This document shows, in pieces, positions 5,565 through 39,677 of a stretch of DNA of 64,000 nt. Position 1 is the stretch's first letter. Each line of letters opens with the position of its first letter. Position numbers and translations under genes: made by a program. Source of the stretch: Bifidobacterium coryneforme (GTDB lineage: Bacteria; Actinomycetota; Actinomycetes; Actinomycetales; Bifidobacteriaceae). The notes beneath the pieces are model-generated. The model worked only from the letters and a program-made list of their open reading frames with translations, was not told the origin of the DNA and searched no databases. The stretch spans positions 916,872 to 980,871 of the forward strand of contig NZ_CP007287.1 of assembly GCF_000737865.1 (NCBI RefSeq), given 5' to 3'.

Positions 5565-7889
5565 TTACCGTTGTGACGACGACAGTTCTTCCCTGACCAG
5601 CTTGGCCGCTGCGACCATATGTTCCAGACTGGGCCAGGTCTCTTCATTGCCTCGGGTCTTGAGCCCGCAGTCGGGATTGATCCAGACCTTTCGGGCATCC
5701 AGCTTGTCAAGGATGGCATGTATCCGCTCGACGATCTCCTCCTCGGAGGGGATGCGGGGCGAGTGAATATCATAGACACCCGGTCCTGCTTCTGTCTCGA
5801 AGTGAGCCTCCTGGATGGCATCAAGAACAGTCAGATCAGACCTGGAAGCCTCGAAGGAGATGACGTCAGCATCCATGGCGTCAATGTCCTTGATGATGTC
5901 GTTGAATTCCGAGTAGCACATATGGGTGTGAATCTGGGTTGTCGGCTTTACGGCCGAATGAACCAATCGGAAGGCGGGAACCGCCCAGTCCAGATACCCC
6001 GTGTGCCAGTCGGAGCGCCTCAGGGGCAGTTTTTCGCGAAGCGCGGCCTCGTCTATCTGGATGACCTTGATACCCGCAGCCTCCAGGTCAAGCACCTCGT
6101 CGCGGATGGCCAGGGCCAGTTGCCGCGTCTGCTCCTCATGGGTGATGTCCTCACGGGGCCAGGACCAGTTCAATATCGTGACGGGCCCCGTCAGCATGCC
6201 CTTGACCACGTGCTTGGTACGTGACTGGGCATAGGAACTCCACCGTACGGTGATGGGCCTGGCGCGGGAGACGTCACCCCATACTATGGGGGGCTTGACG
6301 CAACGCGTACCATACGACTGCACCCAGGCGTTCTTGGTGAAGAGGTACCCATTCAGGTTCTGCCCGAAGTACTCGACCATGTCATTGCGCTCGAACTCGC
6401 CATGCACCAGGACATCCAGGCCGATCCGCTCCTGGTGGTCGATGACCTGGTCGATCTGCGAGGCGATGAACCCGTCGTACTCCTCCTGGCTGATTTCCTT
6501 TTTGCGCAGTCTGGCGCGGTAAGACCTCACCTCGGCGGTCTGGGGGAATGATCCGATTGTCGTGGTCGGCAGATCAGGGAGACCGAGTTCTTCGGCCTGA
6601 ATCCGCTGACGCTCCGCCCGGGCAGGTTGACGGACAAAGTCCTGCTCGTCCAGGGCATCAAGGCGGTTGGAGACCGCCTGGTCCCTCTCCACCCTGGTAC
6701 CGTCGAAGAGGTGCTGGTTATCGGCCAGAACGCGGGAATCCTTCTTTTCTTCGTCATCGGCTGCCGCAAGGATGGCCAGGTCATGCAGCTCATCCAGCTT
6801 CTCGACGGCAAAGGCGAAATGAGGACGGACCGTCTTGGCGTCTAGCCCCTCCTCATTCCTTACCGTAAAGGGAACATGCAGGAGGGATGAGGCGGTGGAG
6901 ACGACCACATCCGAAGTGACCTGACGGACCGCATCGAGGATACCCAGACTGACCGCATAGTTGTTTCGCCAGATGTTGCGCCCGTTGACCAGACCGGCGA
7001 AGACCGTGGTCCCCTGCTTGACCCCGTGCTCCTTAAGAGCCGCCAGATTTTCGTCACGTCCCTCGACCAGGTCCAGACCGATACCGTCAAATCCCAGCTC
7101 ATTGATACAGGCCAGACAGTCCCCCACATGGCCGAAGTATGTCTGCAGAAGTATCCTGACATACCCTTCGCCGCCTTGCCTGGCAGGAAGAATGTCCCGG
7201 TACAGGTTTCGGAAGAGGTCCAGGTCGCCGTCCTCCTTGTCAAGAACCAGGTAGGGCTCATCAAGCTGAACCCAGTCGGCGCCAAGGTCGGCAAAACGGC
7301 GGATGATGTCGGCATAAGCCTTGGACAGGGCCGATACCAGATCATGTCCAGGTTCGATTCTCTCCCCCTCGGGACCACGTGCCAGCTTGAGGAAGGTGTA
7401 GGGACCAATCACTACAGGCTTGGTGGCGATTCCCTGGTCCTTCGCCTCTTGATATTCGTCGAACGGCTTCGAACCCGCAAGCTCCACATGCGTATCAGCA
7501 TCGATTTCAGGAACCAGGTAATGGTAGTTGGTCGTAAACCACTTTTTCATGGGCAGGGCGGTCACATCGCCTTGATCACCCTGATAGCCACGGCCCATGG
7601 CAAAGAGCGTATCCTCAGGGCCAAGACCCAGATCGGCGTAACGGCGGGGCACCACATTGAGCAGTATGGCTGTGTCCAGCATTTGGTCGTAGTAACTGAA
7701 GTCATTGCTGGGAATCAGGTCTATGCCTGCTTCCTTCTGGAGATTCCAGTGCTCGGAACGCAGTGAACGGGCCGTTTCCCTGACACTGTCCAGGTCCAGC
7801 TTTCCCTTCCAGTAGCCCTCGATGGCCTTCTTGAGCTCCCGCTGTGCTCCGATGCGCGGGAAACCGATCACGGATGTGCTGGCTGACAT
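5565..7889 (-). CDS. metE: Cobalamin-independent methionine synthase
   Basis: Transfers the methyl group of 5-methyl-THF-polyglutamate to homocysteine in the cytoplasm, without B12. 774 residues, full length. The N-terminal barrel starts [20 protein letters not shown]. The C-terminal catalytic barrel keeps the zinc ligands: His656 and Cys658 in HTHMCYSEF, Glu680 in SFEASRS and Cys741 in PDCGLKTR. The ATG is preceded by GGGGAGG. metF follows. A candidate promoter lies about 80 bases upstream; I see no SAM or cobalamin riboswitch in the leader. Confidence 0.97.
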
Positions 7890-7971
7890 GAAACCTCCCC
7901 ATTGGTGGTGATATCTCAGGTCAGGTTAACAGCGCCGGTCAGGACCAGGTAATCGGTGGGGGTAGGGTGTC

Positions 7972-8000
7972 GTTATAAATTCAATTGATACCCATTCGAA
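7972..8000 (-). promoter_or_regulatory. Candidate promoter of metE-metF
   Basis: On the minus strand TTCGAA (7995-8000) and TATAAC (7972-7977) are separated by 17 bases. The start point would lie near 7965, giving a leader of about 75 bases. Three copies of GGTCAGG or its complement lie within that leader, including the short palindrome GGTC-AG-GACC; they could be a regulator site but the match is short. Confidence 0.45.
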
Positions 8001-8037
8001 TCGCTTACGGGAGAGCGGTTCAGCAGGTCTCGGCGGG

Positions 8038-8598
8038 CTAGTTCGAGAAGTCGTGCGGTTCCAGAATCCCCAGAAGACGGGCGGTGTGGGTCTGCCACTC
8101 CTCGAAGGGCTTCTCGGAGCCGAAGATGACCAGGTTGGCCGGAGAGAGGCCGAGATTCAGAAGGTCGAGCAGATCCGGGTCGGACTCGGGCTTGGCCAGC
8201 CACTGGCTGCAAATCGACATGATGGGTTCATGGCCTATGACCATGAGTCTGTGTTGCTTGGGCTTGGTCTCGGTCAGCTGGTCGAAAACGGCCTGTATTC
8301 CCGACTCGTAGAGGTCCTCGCGGTAGTCCACCTCGGGGCCATCACCAAACGGTTTGAGCATCCTGTCCAGGGTCTGGCGGGCGCGACGGGCACCTGAACA
8401 GACGATTCTGTCGGGGACCAGGTCGAATTTGACCAGTCCCTTACCCACCTTTCTGGCCTGTTTGAGTCCCTTCTCGGTCAGCTGCCGGTTCCTGTCCCCC
8501 TCAGGAGCTTCGGATTCGGTCTTGGCATGGCGCATCAACATCAACGTATAGGTGCACTTGCCAGCATGTTTGGCGATCTTCTTGATATTGACACCCAT
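8038..8598 (-). CDS. SixA-like histidine phosphatase
   Basis: 186 residues of the histidine-phosphatase (RHG) superfamily, SixA branch. Seen: the catalytic LMLMRHAKTE with the phospho-accepting His, the CSGARRARQT segment with conserved Arg, and VIGHEPIMS with the second catalytic His. SixA of E. coli removes phosphate from histidine phosphotransfer domains, but actinobacterial members are mostly uncharacterised, so the substrate here is unknown. AGAGG precedes the ATG by 7 bases. It lies 72 bases after trmI on the same strand. Confidence 0.85.
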   Translation of the reverse strand: MGVNIKKIAKHAGKCTYTLMLMRHAKTESEAPEGDRNRQLTEKGLKQARKVGKGLVKFDLVPDRIVCSGARRARQTLDRMLKPFGDGPEVDYREDLYESGIQAVFDQLTETKPKQHRLMVIGHEPIMSICSQWLAKPESDPDLLDLLNLGLSPANLVIFGSEKPFEEWQTHTARLLGILEPHDFSN

Positions 8599-8670
8599 TC
8601 CGAGTCCTCTCTTCGAAGGGTCGACAACTCCGCAAGAAAGCCGACCTGTCCATTATGACAGATTCGACCC

Positions 8671-36244: not shown

Positions 36245-36393
36245 GCTTTCAGGCTACCGTTGGCGGTCGAAAACCGCTCCGGCGAACGGTGTTTGCCAGG
36301 TGCCCGGCACCTGCTGATGCGACACGCAAACCCTGCCCCTATGCGAAACCGGCCGGAAGATGCTATAGTATCCTCTGTTGCGAAAACGCACCT

Positions 36394-36480
36394 GTCCGGG
36401 TGGCGGAATGGTAGACGCGCTAGCTTGAGGTGCTAGTGCCTATTTATACAGGCGTACGGGTTCAACTCCCGTTCCGGACA
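36394..36480 (+). tRNA. tRNA-Leu (anticodon GAG)
   Basis: An 87-base class II tRNA. The 7-bp acceptor stem (GTCCGGG / TCCGGAC with one G-T pair), the anticodon stem CTAGC/GCTAG with loop TTGAGGT (anticodon GAG), a long variable arm (TGCC...GGCG) and the T arm ACGGG-TTCAACT-CCCGT are all visible. The discriminator base is A; CCA is not encoded. It reads CUC and CUU codons. A strong terminator follows after 15 bases. Confidence 0.95.
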
Positions 36481-36495
36481 CTCCATATGTAAGGG

Positions 36496-36524
36496 AAATA
36501 CCTCTGCAATTGCAGAGGTATTTT
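36496..36524 (+). terminator. Terminator of tRNA-Leu, near-perfect palindrome
   Basis: Arms AAATACCTCTGCAA and TTGCAGAGGTATTT are perfectly complementary with no spacer (the loop must open at AATT). A run of T follows on the plus strand. It marks the left edge of the AT-richer region. Confidence 0.9.
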
Positions 36525-37025
36525 GCTATTGAACAACAGGTCTTGGAAGCTGCTGGATGACATTAAAAGTCACGCAGCGTGCTATGATACGGCCGAAGGC
36601 TGTGTACTATGATAGTCGACACTCCCCGGCCTAATTGTTGGCCCATAATGGTATGCACGAGCCGCAACAATGCCACCCTTCAGACTAAACCCAAATCGCC
36701 GGAAAAGGCCGTCTGCCCAATTAAGTTGTCCCTAGGGCACATCGCGACAGTTCCTGCCACTAATACAGCACCAACCGATGTGCTCCGAAAACGACGTGGC
36801 GCCCACTAGACGGCGGACTATCACACAATGGAAACGCAGAGACTTCATCAACTCATCGCATAACGAGACAACAAACCCGTGTACCTACTCAGGACCATCC
36901 GGCGGGCATACACTAGAGAGGTGTGCTGGTTTCTTACGTCCGCGACTGTAATCATGTACCCAGTTGTGTCGGCCACTTTTAACGAAGCGTAGGGGCAAGC
37001 ACTGGACTTAGAAAAAGCATCAACT
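36525..37025. other. Gene-poor spacer at the left of the AT-richer island
   Basis: About 500 bases without a convincing gene. A plus-strand open frame of 66 codons (36609-36809) has no ribosome binding site and resembles no family known to me. On the minus strand 36563-36805 reads as 80 codons with a single TGA in the middle and a hydrophobic stretch (TSVGAVLVAGTVAM), which could be a decayed membrane-protein fragment. No transposase or integrase piece and no repeat of the tRNA 3' end was seen. Confidence 0.4.
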
Positions 37026-37059
37026 AATGGGCTAACCCATTCAGAACCTTAGATACACT
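37026..37059 (+). promoter_or_regulatory. Candidate promoter with palindromic operator for the two-gene cassette
   Basis: The 16-base palindrome AATGGG-CTAA-CCCATT (37026-37041) lies where the -35 region should be for a TACACT -10 element at 37054-37059. No good -35 hexamer is present, so an activator or repressor site is plausible. No regulator gene lies beside it. Confidence 0.4.
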
Positions 37060-37081
37060 GATTTTTCCAGCCTAAAGGTAA

Positions 37082-37110
37082 CCTTATCATATAGGCAATC
37101 TACGATAAGG
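37082..37110 (+). promoter_or_regulatory. Hairpin that would cover the ribosome binding site of the cassette
   Basis: CCTTATC and GATAAGG are a perfect 7-bp inverted repeat with a 15-base loop. The right arm contains the AAGG core of the AAGGA site that serves the ATG at 37121. Folding would hide that site, so translation could be conditional. Confidence 0.5.
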
Positions 37111-37120
37111 AAATCGGGTT

Positions 37121-38131
37121 ATGGCAAATGTTGCTTTTCGTCTATTTAAGATAGAGGTGCATAAGAATAATGCTCGTACGGCATTGGGGGACGGCAATCC
37201 TCTTGGGAAAGATTCATTCCAGACAACTGTTTTAAATGCGGCAGCCGCCCTGAAGGGGGAAGTTCTCCATGAACCTCCTAGGGTGTATTTAGATTCACGT
37301 ATTTTCCAACCAGAGCAACCAGCCAAATCAGGCGATCCATGTTTTTTGATCCGTGACATACGTCCCGTTTTCAGCGATGTTACCGAAATTGAAATTTTCA
37401 AAGGCAAGTATGGCGATCTTGATTACTTGATTCGCAATGACGGCGGCCTCTCAGACATACATGACGATGCCGCGACCCGAAAATTCCTGGTGAGAATATC
37501 GTTTCCGAAAGACCGGAACTGCTGTTATATTGCTTCGCAGATGAGGGCCGCCTCACAGGCGGGAACTGATCTCTTTGACCATATCTCATACTACCTCCAT
37601 AAAAAGGCTGTCAGACAAAGAGATCATGGCATAGAGCAGGTTGCCGATTGGTTCCGCTTTATTTCCGTTGCATTAGTTGATGAAAATAGATTTGATTCAG
37701 CACTCGGAAAGGCCGAGGTGGAATCGTTCAAGTTGGTCAAAAAAGGCGTGTCATCCAATGGGACAAAAACACAAGAAAAATTCACGGTAGAGTACTCCAA
37801 ACCTTCGCATATTCACAAAACTGAGGGACTTGGAATCCTTAAAAAGCTCACCAAATTTGCCACAAAATCCGCTGAATATCCTCCTGCAGTCGGAGCTATC
37901 GCTGCATTATTCCCCTCTTGGGCGAGTCAGAACATTCAAAACTGGGATGATGGGTCGATTACTTTTATCGAAAATCAGAAGCGAACGACAATTTCTGCTC
38001 TTGCAATAGCTCAGTTGTTTGTATATCCTTTGGGCGACAAAGCATCAATTCAAGATTTATGGGCTGAAGCCAATTCTCGTCTGACCGAAATCGGCCATGC
38101 GGATGGGATTATAATTCCAACTATTGTTTGA
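37121..38131 (+). CDS. Uncharacterised 336-residue soluble protein, first gene of island cassette
   Basis: No family recognised. The protein begins ANVAFRLFKIEVHKNNART, has no signal peptide and no clear membrane segment apart from a mildly hydrophobic stretch near residues 262-275 (AVGAIAALFPSW). The first half looks alpha/beta with many charged residues (IRDIRPVFSDVTEIEIFKGKYGDLDYL); no P-loop, nuclease, helix-turn-helix or protease motif is visible. AAGGA lies 9 bases before the ATG. Base composition and codon use are clearly AT-richer than the flanking genes (AAA, ATT and GAT codons common), a sign of acquisition. The next gene, for a four-helix membrane protein, starts 13 bases later. 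A sensor or regulator for that protein is conceivable but unproven. Confidence 0.8.
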   Translation: MANVAFRLFKIEVHKNNARTALGDGNPLGKDSFQTTVLNAAAALKGEVLHEPPRVYLDSRIFQPEQPAKSGDPCFLIRDIRPVFSDVTEIEIFKGKYGDLDYLIRNDGGLSDIHDDAATRKFLVRISFPKDRNCCYIASQMRAASQAGTDLFDHISYYLHKKAVRQRDHGIEQVADWFRFISVALVDENRFDSALGKAEVESFKLVKKGVSSNGTKTQEKFTVEYSKPSHIHKTEGLGILKKLTKFATKSAEYPPAVGAIAALFPSWASQNIQNWDDGSITFIENQKRTTISALAIAQLFVYPLGDKASIQDLWAEANSRLTEIGHADGIIIPTIV

Positions 38132-38144
38132 GAGGGGGAGCAAA

Positions 38145-38747
38145 ATGAAGGAGCTCTCACCTATCTATATATATAGGGCGCAGTGGAGAGCTACTTTGCG
38201 GTTTGTCCAACATGACCTAGAGAAAGGTATGAAGCACAATCAGTTTAGTGTCTTCATGATACTTGGAGTCCCAATTATCACAACAATCGCGAGCCTTGTC
38301 TTATGCTGTGTCATTGTTCTTAGGGCCGAATCGAAGGGGCAACAGGTTGATCCGCTTCCCATAGAGGATCCTTTGTTGGCTTCGCTTGCTATTCTTTCGG
38401 GTGCTCTGATAACTGCATTCACTCTTCTAGCCAGTTGGAGGAATTCTGTAAGCGCCAAAACCCAAGGTTCGACGGACTATGCTGCCGAACGATGGTTGCT
38501 TGACACATCATCGGCACATTTGCTTGCCGGAGCTTATAGCTCAATTATTGCTTCAGTTATGGTGATGCTTTTCAAAGCTCTGAACTTGCTAAACATGTCG
38601 TGGATCACCGTGGTTGGAACAAGCCTCGAAATAGGAATCAGCTCCCATGTGGTTATGAGCCTTCTCATAGCTTTACCATCTCTCTATGCGGCTTATGTGC
38701 AGCTTAACGATGTTGACCCGATTCTGAACGGACATAACGATATATAA
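38145..38747 (+). CDS. Uncharacterised 200-residue membrane protein (four predicted helices), second gene of island cassette
   Basis: No family recognised. After a polar N-terminus of about 35 residues with a helical basic stretch (YRAQWRATLRFVQHDLEKG), four hydrophobic segments lie near residues 40-61, 80-99, 125-145 and 160-185. A short Asp/Asn-rich tail follows. The ATG at 38145 has GAGGGGGAG 5 bases before it; seven upstream codons are open but overlap the first gene. Composition is AT-rich like its partner. Size and topology resemble small pore-forming or abortive-infection effectors, but no motif proves it; a subunit of a sensor or transporter is equally possible. Confidence 0.8.
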   Translation: MKELSPIYIYRAQWRATLRFVQHDLEKGMKHNQFSVFMILGVPIITTIASLVLCCVIVLRAESKGQQVDPLPIEDPLLASLAILSGALITAFTLLASWRNSVSAKTQGSTDYAAERWLLDTSSAHLLAGAYSSIIASVMVMLFKALNLLNMSWITVVGTSLEIGISSHVVMSLLIALPSLYAAYVQLNDVDPILNGHNDI

Positions 38748-38807
38748 AACGATATAAGCAACAGGCATCATCTCTGATCCGGGCTTCGTCACGAAGGAGG
38801 AAGAAGC

Positions 38808-39677
38808 ATGCGCACCGTTCGTATCAGGTCGGTCGACGACGACTGCCTTGAGGCATATACACACCTCACGGAAATGCAGCTGAGGAACAGGCTTGAACCA
38901 AGCAAGGGACTGTTCATCGCCGAGTCACCGAAGGTGATTGCCCGCGCCTTGGATGCAGGAGTGGAACCCATCTCCTTCCTGGTGGAGGAACCCTGGTTGG
39001 ATGGGATGTCCAGCATGTTCAACCAGGTCGATACCGCTTTCGGACCGGATGTCCCCGTCTATGTGGCGAGTCCCGAGCAGTTGAAGTCCATCACAGGATA
39101 TCGCCTCCACAGGGGTGCCCTGGCTGCCATGCGTCGGTGGCCCCTCCCCTCTGTGGACCAGCTGTGCAGGACCGCAACCAGGGTGGCCGTCATGGAGAAC
39201 ATCGTCGACCATACCAACGTCGGCGCGCTGATGCGGTCTGCGGCAGCCTTGGATGTGGACGCCGTCCTGGTGTCCCCGTCTTGCTCGGATCCGTTGTACA
39301 GGCGGGCAGCCCGGGTTTCCATGGGCACGGTCTTTCAGGTGCCCTGGACCCGAATCGGCGGGGATGACAAGAGCTACTGGCCGGTCCAGGGACTGGAGGA
39401 CCTGCACCGTCTGGGCTTCACGACTGCCGCCATGGCCCTGAGTGACGACTCGATCAACCTCGACGACCTGACCGCACGCCTCTCCCCCCGTTCATCCCCT
39501 TCGGATCCCGGACACATCGACAAACTCGCCCTGGTCTTCGGCACAGAGGGTGACGGGCTGTCCAGACAGACCATAGCCCATGCCGACCTGACGGTGCGGA
39601 TACCCATGAGCCACCATGTGGACAGTCTGAACGTCGCCGCCTCGAGCGCAGTGGCCTTCTACGCGACGCGCCCCTGA
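38808..39677 (+). CDS. RNA 2'-O-methyltransferase, SpoU/TrmH family
   Basis: 289 residues. The C-terminal SPOUT domain has all three motifs: NVGALMRSAAAL, LVFGTEGDGLS and IPMSHHVDSLNVAASSAVA. The N-terminal part (LRNRLEPSKGLFIAESPKVIARAL) is a substrate-binding domain as in 23S rRNA methylases such as TsnR-like or RlmB-like enzymes. The exact target base cannot be told. AGGAGGAAG precedes the ATG. GC-rich like the core genome, so the island ends between 38748 and 38807. Confidence 0.9.
   Translation: MRTVRIRSVDDDCLEAYTHLTEMQLRNRLEPSKGLFIAESPKVIARALDAGVEPISFLVEEPWLDGMSSMFNQVDTAFGPDVPVYVASPEQLKSITGYRLHRGALAAMRRWPLPSVDQLCRTATRVAVMENIVDHTNVGALMRSAAALDVDAVLVSPSCSDPLYRRAARVSMGTVFQVPWTRIGGDDKSYWPVQGLEDLHRLGFTTAAMALSDDSINLDDLTARLSPRSSPSDPGHIDKLALVFGTEGDGLSRQTIAHADLTVRIPMSHHVDSLNVAASSAVAFYATRP

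Follow-up and report, generated by a model that had tools for sequence, protein, structure and literature searches.

Anti-phage activity has been published for three phage-borne gene pairs, Butters gp30/31, Sbash gp30/31 and CarolAnn gp44/43 (PMC7542560, PMC6426596, PMC6426606). According to the reports on Sbash and CarolAnn, both genes are needed, early phage proteins act as the trigger, and the opening of a membrane channel is proposed (PMC6426596, PMC6426606). In Butters, gp30 alone is described as blocking two phages, PurpleHaze and Alma, and gp31 as attenuating the effect (PMC7542560). Overexpression of RexA in Pseudomonas putida is reported to cause RexB-dependent growth arrest and membrane damage, and the same paper, from 2026, puts the number of RexAB-like systems described at just five (PMC12894663). 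For phage lambda, it has been argued that RexA introduces a bias into the lambda switch, exclusion being perhaps a by-product; the structural link to lambda RexA drawn in that paper concerns Toast gp42 (PMC11077077). More homologues, from phages and from genomes of Mycobacterium and Rhodococcus, were listed earlier (PMC7542560, PMC6426596, PMC11077077). Here we describe a gene pair that, by profile comparison, belongs to this family and lies in a 64,000-nucleotide stretch of the Bifidobacterium coryneforme genome (NZ_CP007287.1, positions 916,872 to 980,871; hereafter the window), a genome of 1,755,151 bp in a single contig. In literature that was mostly open access, with few subscription papers and with bioRxiv outside the search, we found no report of this pair in bifidobacteria.

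The pair comprises two open reading frames (ORFs) on the forward strand, both with ATG starts and spaced by 13 nt. The first (37121-38131) encodes a soluble 336-residue protein, P0001, a putative RexA-like partner of the Butters gp30/Toast gp42 branch. The second (38145-38747) encodes a 200-residue membrane protein with four predicted segments, P0002, a putative RexB-like partner of the Butters gp31/Toast gp41 branch. The cassette is probably a small phage-defence unit. On balance, the reading we find likeliest is that of a chromosomal, probably prophage-derived Rex-like phage-exclusion unit that stands alone at the 3' end of a tRNA-Leu gene.

Like the window pair, the pairs of Butters (a Mycobacterium phage) and Toast (a Gordonia phage) have four predicted segments in each membrane protein. 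Both of their proteins are homologous to ours by profile, they share gene order and strand, and they fall into the same supported group in both trees, with intergenic gaps of –8 and +24 nt against +13 nt in the window. Sequence identity is low, at 13–18% for the soluble proteins (alignment A7) and 22–23% for the membrane proteins (alignment A8). They differ in that they are carried in temperate phage genomes, Toast's beside the immunity repressor, whereas the window pair sits alone at a tRNA gene with no adjoining phage gene, although its nearest relative does have such neighbours. Carriage by a temperate phage and lysogenic expression are treated here as properties of the known examples and not as defining ones. 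Sbash and CarolAnn share the gene order and an arginine column with the window pair, but belong to the other half of the soluble tree. The lambda pair likewise consists of a soluble and a four-segment membrane protein in the same order, with a 15-nt gap, but no sequence similarity to it was found. By its description, the P. putida pair RexApp/RexBpp (PP_5643/PP_5644) also joins a soluble DNA-binding protein to a four-segment membrane protein (PMC12894663).

Homology to the phage exclusion pairs

All HMMER profile searches were run with Z = 1e6. Leave-out profiles were built from 21 soluble and 22 membrane members; the soluble one used cellular and plasmid rows, without the window, the phages or G008, a genome of the same genus. 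The soluble profile recovered the window protein with an E-value of 2e-15, along with Toast gp42 (1.1e-42), Butters gp30 (3.6e-36), Dulem virus 32 (9.3e-28), Sbash gp30 (1.2e-16) and CarolAnn gp44 (2.4e-9). The membrane profile gave 3.3e-19 for the window, 2.3e-31 for Toast gp41, 6.5e-30 for Butters gp31 and 6.1e-17 for Dulem, and was weak for Sbash gp31 (2.2e-4) and CarolAnn gp43 (1.2e-3). In a set of 886 ORFs that included the family members, the best non-family ORF scored 1.8 with the soluble and 0.35 with the membrane profile, the latter an ORF of L016, a locus dropped already. A membrane profile made from just three phage rows also reached the window (2.4e-11), and profile-profile comparison of the window clade with Butters, Toast, Rhodococcus and G295 yielded 97.8% (soluble) and 98.4% (membrane). 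By these profile comparisons, Butters gp30/31, Toast gp42/41, Sbash gp30/31 and CarolAnn gp44/43 are homologues of the two window proteins, which places the pair in an actinobacterial Rex-like family; extending the relationship to lambda RexA depends on PMC11077077.

Searches of family libraries gave little. For P0001 and P0002 there was no PHROGs match, no match to any PADLOC family at E up to 10, and none in NCBIfam, where only the window proteins were searched. In Pfam, P0002 matched DUF4010 (E 0.0038, 17.4 bits), under the cut-off of 30. Seven soluble members of alignment A4 matched no PADLOC family and gave one Pfam match in one member (DUF6496, E 0.37); eight membrane members of alignment A3 gave one PADLOC match in one member ('1TM effector', E 0.016). 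The Butters and Toast proteins have no PHROGs match either, and profile searches of the Protein Data Bank returned only weak, apparently unrelated matches (best E 0.034 and 0.22). The scanned members thus lack above-cut-off library matches, and library-based surveys would therefore miss such pairs. The first-pass annotation of this DNA had assigned neither product to a known family, which is right for the libraries and wrong in so far as the Butters, Toast, Sbash and CarolAnn relatives exist. A match to a housekeeping family, which would have spoken against its idea of an anti-phage-like cassette, was looked for and none was seen. Kiwa (KwaA/KwaB), in which the proteins have similar sizes and the same soluble/membrane split, was considered on size and topology and set aside, given no PADLOC match at E up to 10 and a gene order reversed relative to the window pair.

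A plain hydropathy scan places the P0002 segments at residues 39-57, 77-95, 125-143 and 169-187 and finds no membrane segment in P0001, in agreement with the initial description of a soluble protein beside a four-helix membrane protein. Of the 31 membrane proteins of the family that were scanned, 23 have four predicted segments; the remaining eight, including CarolAnn gp43, to which its authors assign four (PMC6426606), have three. One of 29 soluble proteins (from G871) shows a single segment. In Sbash gp31, the substitutions R70A and D73A are reported to abolish defence (PMC6426596). The alignment column of R70 holds arginine in 29 of 30 membrane proteins, R99 being the window residue.

The two genes as a unit

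All 29 tabulated pairs, the window included (28 without lambda), have the soluble gene directly upstream of the membrane gene and in the same orientation, with intergenic gaps of –55 to +98 nt (median 3). Across 28 pairs, distances among the soluble proteins correlate with those among the membrane proteins (Mantel r 0.79, reached in 0 of 10,000 permutations), and r is 0.78 after removal of two close rows. The two genes travel together as a conserved pair that diverges jointly; the correlation by itself is no proof of contact. The same pairing holds in the survey of genomes: at every homologous place that was kept, the two genes or what is left of them adjoin each other, so that the separated homologues which would have spoken against the first-pass idea were not seen.

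The tree of soluble proteins has a supported half of 14 of its 28 rows (100/99) that unites the window and G008 proteins with Butters gp30 and Toast gp42; the Sbash and CarolAnn proteins belong to the opposite half. Of the 30 rows in the membrane tree, 18 form a supported set (96/94) that includes the window clade, Butters gp31 and Toast gp41. Both trees have many long branches, and their roots are midpoints.

A gain/loss island at tRNA-Leu

The same-species genome G149 is colinear with the window across all 64 kb at 98.7–99.1% identity, and 36482-38761 is the sole window stretch of at least 60 bp that it does not match. This inserted island of 2,280 bp (GC content 0.46), delimited by BLAST, is replaced by 80 bp in G149. 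Its left edge coincides exactly with the 3' end of tRNA-Leu(GAG) (36394-36481, forward strand; ARAGORN and Rfam RF00005). The cassette is thus a presence/absence island, and its absence in G149 may reflect loss there rather than gain in the window genome. The stretch originally delimited, 37121-38747, does cover the two genes, but the inserted unit is larger. The GC content across the pair is 0.43–0.46 and that of the surroundings mostly 0.55–0.64. Neither an integrase nor an attachment-like repeat was apparent: no copy of the tRNA end of at least 10 nt lies downstream, and the island ends show no long direct repeat.

The spacer between the tRNA and the methylase-like ORF measures about 0.13–0.27 kb in G149, G025, G007 and G022 (same genus), 1.7 kb in G023 and 4.0 kb, with other genes, in G008. 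Since its length and content differ across the genus, the site is a generally variable one with no particular tie to defence genes. In G001 and G017, the site stretch examined contained no tRNA. The variation of the spacer can be seen in L101 and L102; in G008, its cargo consists, by eye, of regulator-, esterase- and transporter-like ORFs.

Relatives and their surroundings

The genome samples were partial and overlapping, and the numbers of relatives are not prevalences. Searching with P0001 gave matches in 2 of 149 relatives, namely the window's own genome and G008. The latter carries an intact adjacent pair in the same order, with 52% (soluble) and 62% (membrane) amino acid identity. Differences between the two pairs are mostly synonymous, with nonsynonymous and synonymous differences per site (pN/pS) of 0.316/0.723 for the soluble and 0.249/0.795 for the membrane gene, the synonymous sites being close to saturation. 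Because G008 has this pair, adjacent, in the same order and changed mostly at synonymous sites, both window ORFs are, as judged from sequence conservation, real genes. The G008 pair (8418-10048 in L055:800-15218, G008:C1) sits inside a prophage, flanked by packaging genes (portal, phrog_104, by PHROGs; terminase, HNH and capsid by eye) and by a replication-initiation gene (PHROGs). G008 also holds a second copy (L003, G008:C1:1391787-1395179), in which the soluble gene has decayed and the membrane ORF beside it is open.

The membrane profile matched, in 396 genomes of the order, five genomes besides the window's own, with the soluble gene directly upstream in each. Five of 396 genomes of the phylum were matched, of which two hold real pairs. 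The other three (G483, G644, G672) were dropped as chance matches; a soluble partner was missing by eye, and they were absent from the list obtained with the soluble profile. With soluble profiles, three more samples of 149, 197 and 200 genomes yielded 6, 5 and 6 matching genomes, some of them recurring, and a membrane partner was present at each place. Searches at the protein level brought in further members, on plasmids of Microbacterium, Rhodococcus and Glutamicibacter as well as in the phages Butters, Toast/PCoral7 and Dulem virus 32. Some further searches were empty: L010 in plasmids and viral contigs, L022 in plasmids and L009 in genome contigs. Pairs of this kind, though diverged, thus turn up across many actinobacterial families; some are carried by plasmids or prophages, and the window copy has no phage gene beside it.

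Near other relatives lie genes for integrases and resolvases, for repressors accompanied by an IrrE-type protease, or for type I restriction systems. We surveyed 149 neighbour ORFs at 17 loci against 110 control ORFs at 14 loci, using a simple ORF rule; L056, L073, L074, neighbour ORFs under 105 residues and, owing to size, 6 of 20 control loci were left out. Among the matches listed, the neighbours included Phage_integrase and HTH_3 (four each), Methylase_S (three), HSDR_N, N6_Mtase, Resolvase, phage antirepressor and IrrE peptidase (two each), as well as housekeeping families. None of these neighbour families had two or more members among the matches listed for the control ORFs (25 families listed on either side), where single matches may occur. 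With PADLOC at 1e-10, the neighbours matched 201 families, largely type I restriction models on few proteins, and the controls 32, where helicases and a single type IIG restriction enzyme were among the proteins hit. These counts are too small for a claim of enrichment and are only suggestive.

Individual loci add some detail. On the Rhodococcus opacus plasmid pCP105 (L019; pair at 7001-8601), genes for a Toll/interleukin-1 receptor (TIR) domain protein and a caspase-family protein follow the pair at a distance of about 5 kb. On a Microbacterium plasmid (L018; pair at 6899-8437), a set of type I restriction-modification genes (HsdR, S, M) comes just after the pair. The pair on the Glutamicibacter plasmid pR912A (L029; 4965-6402) adjoins an IS6100 transposase gene, with sul1 farther upstream. 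At L022, L045, L046 and L027 the order is helix-turn-helix (HTH) repressor, soluble gene, membrane gene and HExxH metalloprotease, as in phage immunity cassettes; this order is annotated in Toast (L027) and was read by eye in the other three. A transposase-like ORF interrupts the soluble gene in G1127 (L048/L050), where the membrane gene remains, and G1155 has three near-identical places of the pair (L045, L049, L051).

Possible mode of action and alternatives

The anti-phage role proposed in the first-pass annotation is upheld at the level of homology, where membership of a published family of exclusion pairs and location on a gain/loss island both point towards it. Under the favoured reading, the soluble protein would be a dimeric DNA-binding sensor that is idle without infection. 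An early protein of the infecting phage, or a DNA structure, could activate it, whereupon it would engage the membrane protein from the cytoplasm, close to R99 and to the loop that joins segments 2 and 3. The membrane protein would thereby be opened or triggered, the membrane potential would drop, growth would halt and the infection would abort. We borrow this order of sensor and membrane effector by analogy from Sbash, CarolAnn, P. putida and lambda, and favour it only moderately because the window groups with Butters.

Several findings weigh against the favoured reading. Butters gp30, with which the window protein groups, is protective alone and weakened by gp31. A soluble profile made from phage rows only is weak (E 0.91 for the window, 0.069 for G008), and a direct tblastn with P0001 gave no match in phages, plasmids or viral contigs, nor in a further search of genome contigs; the soluble link therefore runs through intermediates. 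Lambda RexA has no sequence link, with an hhalign probability of 0.3% against the 27-row family profile (the best of 54 control ORFs reached 2.1%, reversed RexA 0.1%) and 2.4% against the three-row phage profile, a figure without control ORFs; nor has lambda RexB (0.5%, likewise without control ORFs). The match of R99 to Sbash R70 requires a one-residue gap, and an ungapped hidden Markov model alignment shifts the arginine by one position. Asp73 of Sbash gp31 is common only to CarolAnn and is valine in the window. Finally, neither a repressor nor an integrase adjoins the window pair, and its expression in the host is an assumption.

The roles could also be reversed, as proposed for Butters: the soluble protein would be the anti-phage effector, and the membrane protein would bind and restrain it until infection. 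This is a real but clearly less probable option. It draws on the supported grouping of window and G008 with Butters and Toast in both trees (100/99; 96/94) and on the reported activity of gp30 and attenuation by gp31 (PMC7542560). An active membrane part, by contrast, would fit the near-invariant arginine closing the second segment and the four segments predicted in most membrane proteins (three in eight), and Butters is, in the literature covered, the only member of the branch assayed in cells. The initial suggestion that the membrane protein is the killing part is in any case not established for this branch. Slightly more doubtful still, we would venture that the Butters/Toast branch and the stand-alone window copy may form a separate defence class, with a soluble DNA-binding antiviral effector and a four-segment membrane-bound brake, distributed across Actinomycetota in prophages, on plasmids and in bare islands of the chromosome, and unnamed in family libraries. 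The sequence spread, the near-invariant arginine and the natural occurrence of same-species genomes with and without the pair allow testing which partner is the effector.

It is unlikely that the cassette is a prophage-born regulator pair whose chief task is tuning lysis and lysogeny and which persists in the chromosome with no defence function in its own right. The argument on RexA and the lambda switch (PMC11077077) and the repressors beside several relatives (L027, annotated; L022, L045 and L046, by eye) would suit such a pair; yet the window copy has no adjoining repressor or phage genes and still retains open frames and mostly synonymous changes relative to G008. Recently arrived prophage debris, non-functional in the present host, would account for the missing phage machinery and has a parallel in the decayed second copy in G008, but both window genes are intact, with RBS-like (ribosome-binding-site-like) stretches and family-typical spacing, which makes this explanation improbable. 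Least probable by a small step is a toxin-antitoxin or addiction pair maintaining the island. The cassette has that general shape, being small, mobile and made of two genes, one of them for a membrane protein, and relatives of it lie on three plasmids, but CarolAnn gp43 or gp44 by itself is described as not toxic (PMC6426606), and no family match of the window proteins was found in NCBIfam, PADLOC or, above the cut-off, Pfam.

Other features of the locus

The low-GC genes each follow a purine-rich RBS-like stretch, recognised by eye, as had been noted with their 13-nt spacing: AAGGA (37107-37111) precedes the soluble ORF and GAGGGGGAG (38132-38140) the membrane ORF. Their position between tRNA-Leu and a methylase gene likewise stands, the methylase-like ORF (38808-39677) being named by eye. 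The leader without recognised gene (36524-37120, forward strand) gave no blastn match to any collected locus, and Rfam found only the tRNA over 36300-38900. Promoter-like matches (3 found, 3.4 expected from shuffles) and terminator-like matches (1 found, 1.7 expected) were at chance level. Just 3' of the tRNA, a perfect 14-nt inverted repeat followed by TTTTG (36496-36523), absent from the terminator-scan output, may be a terminator.
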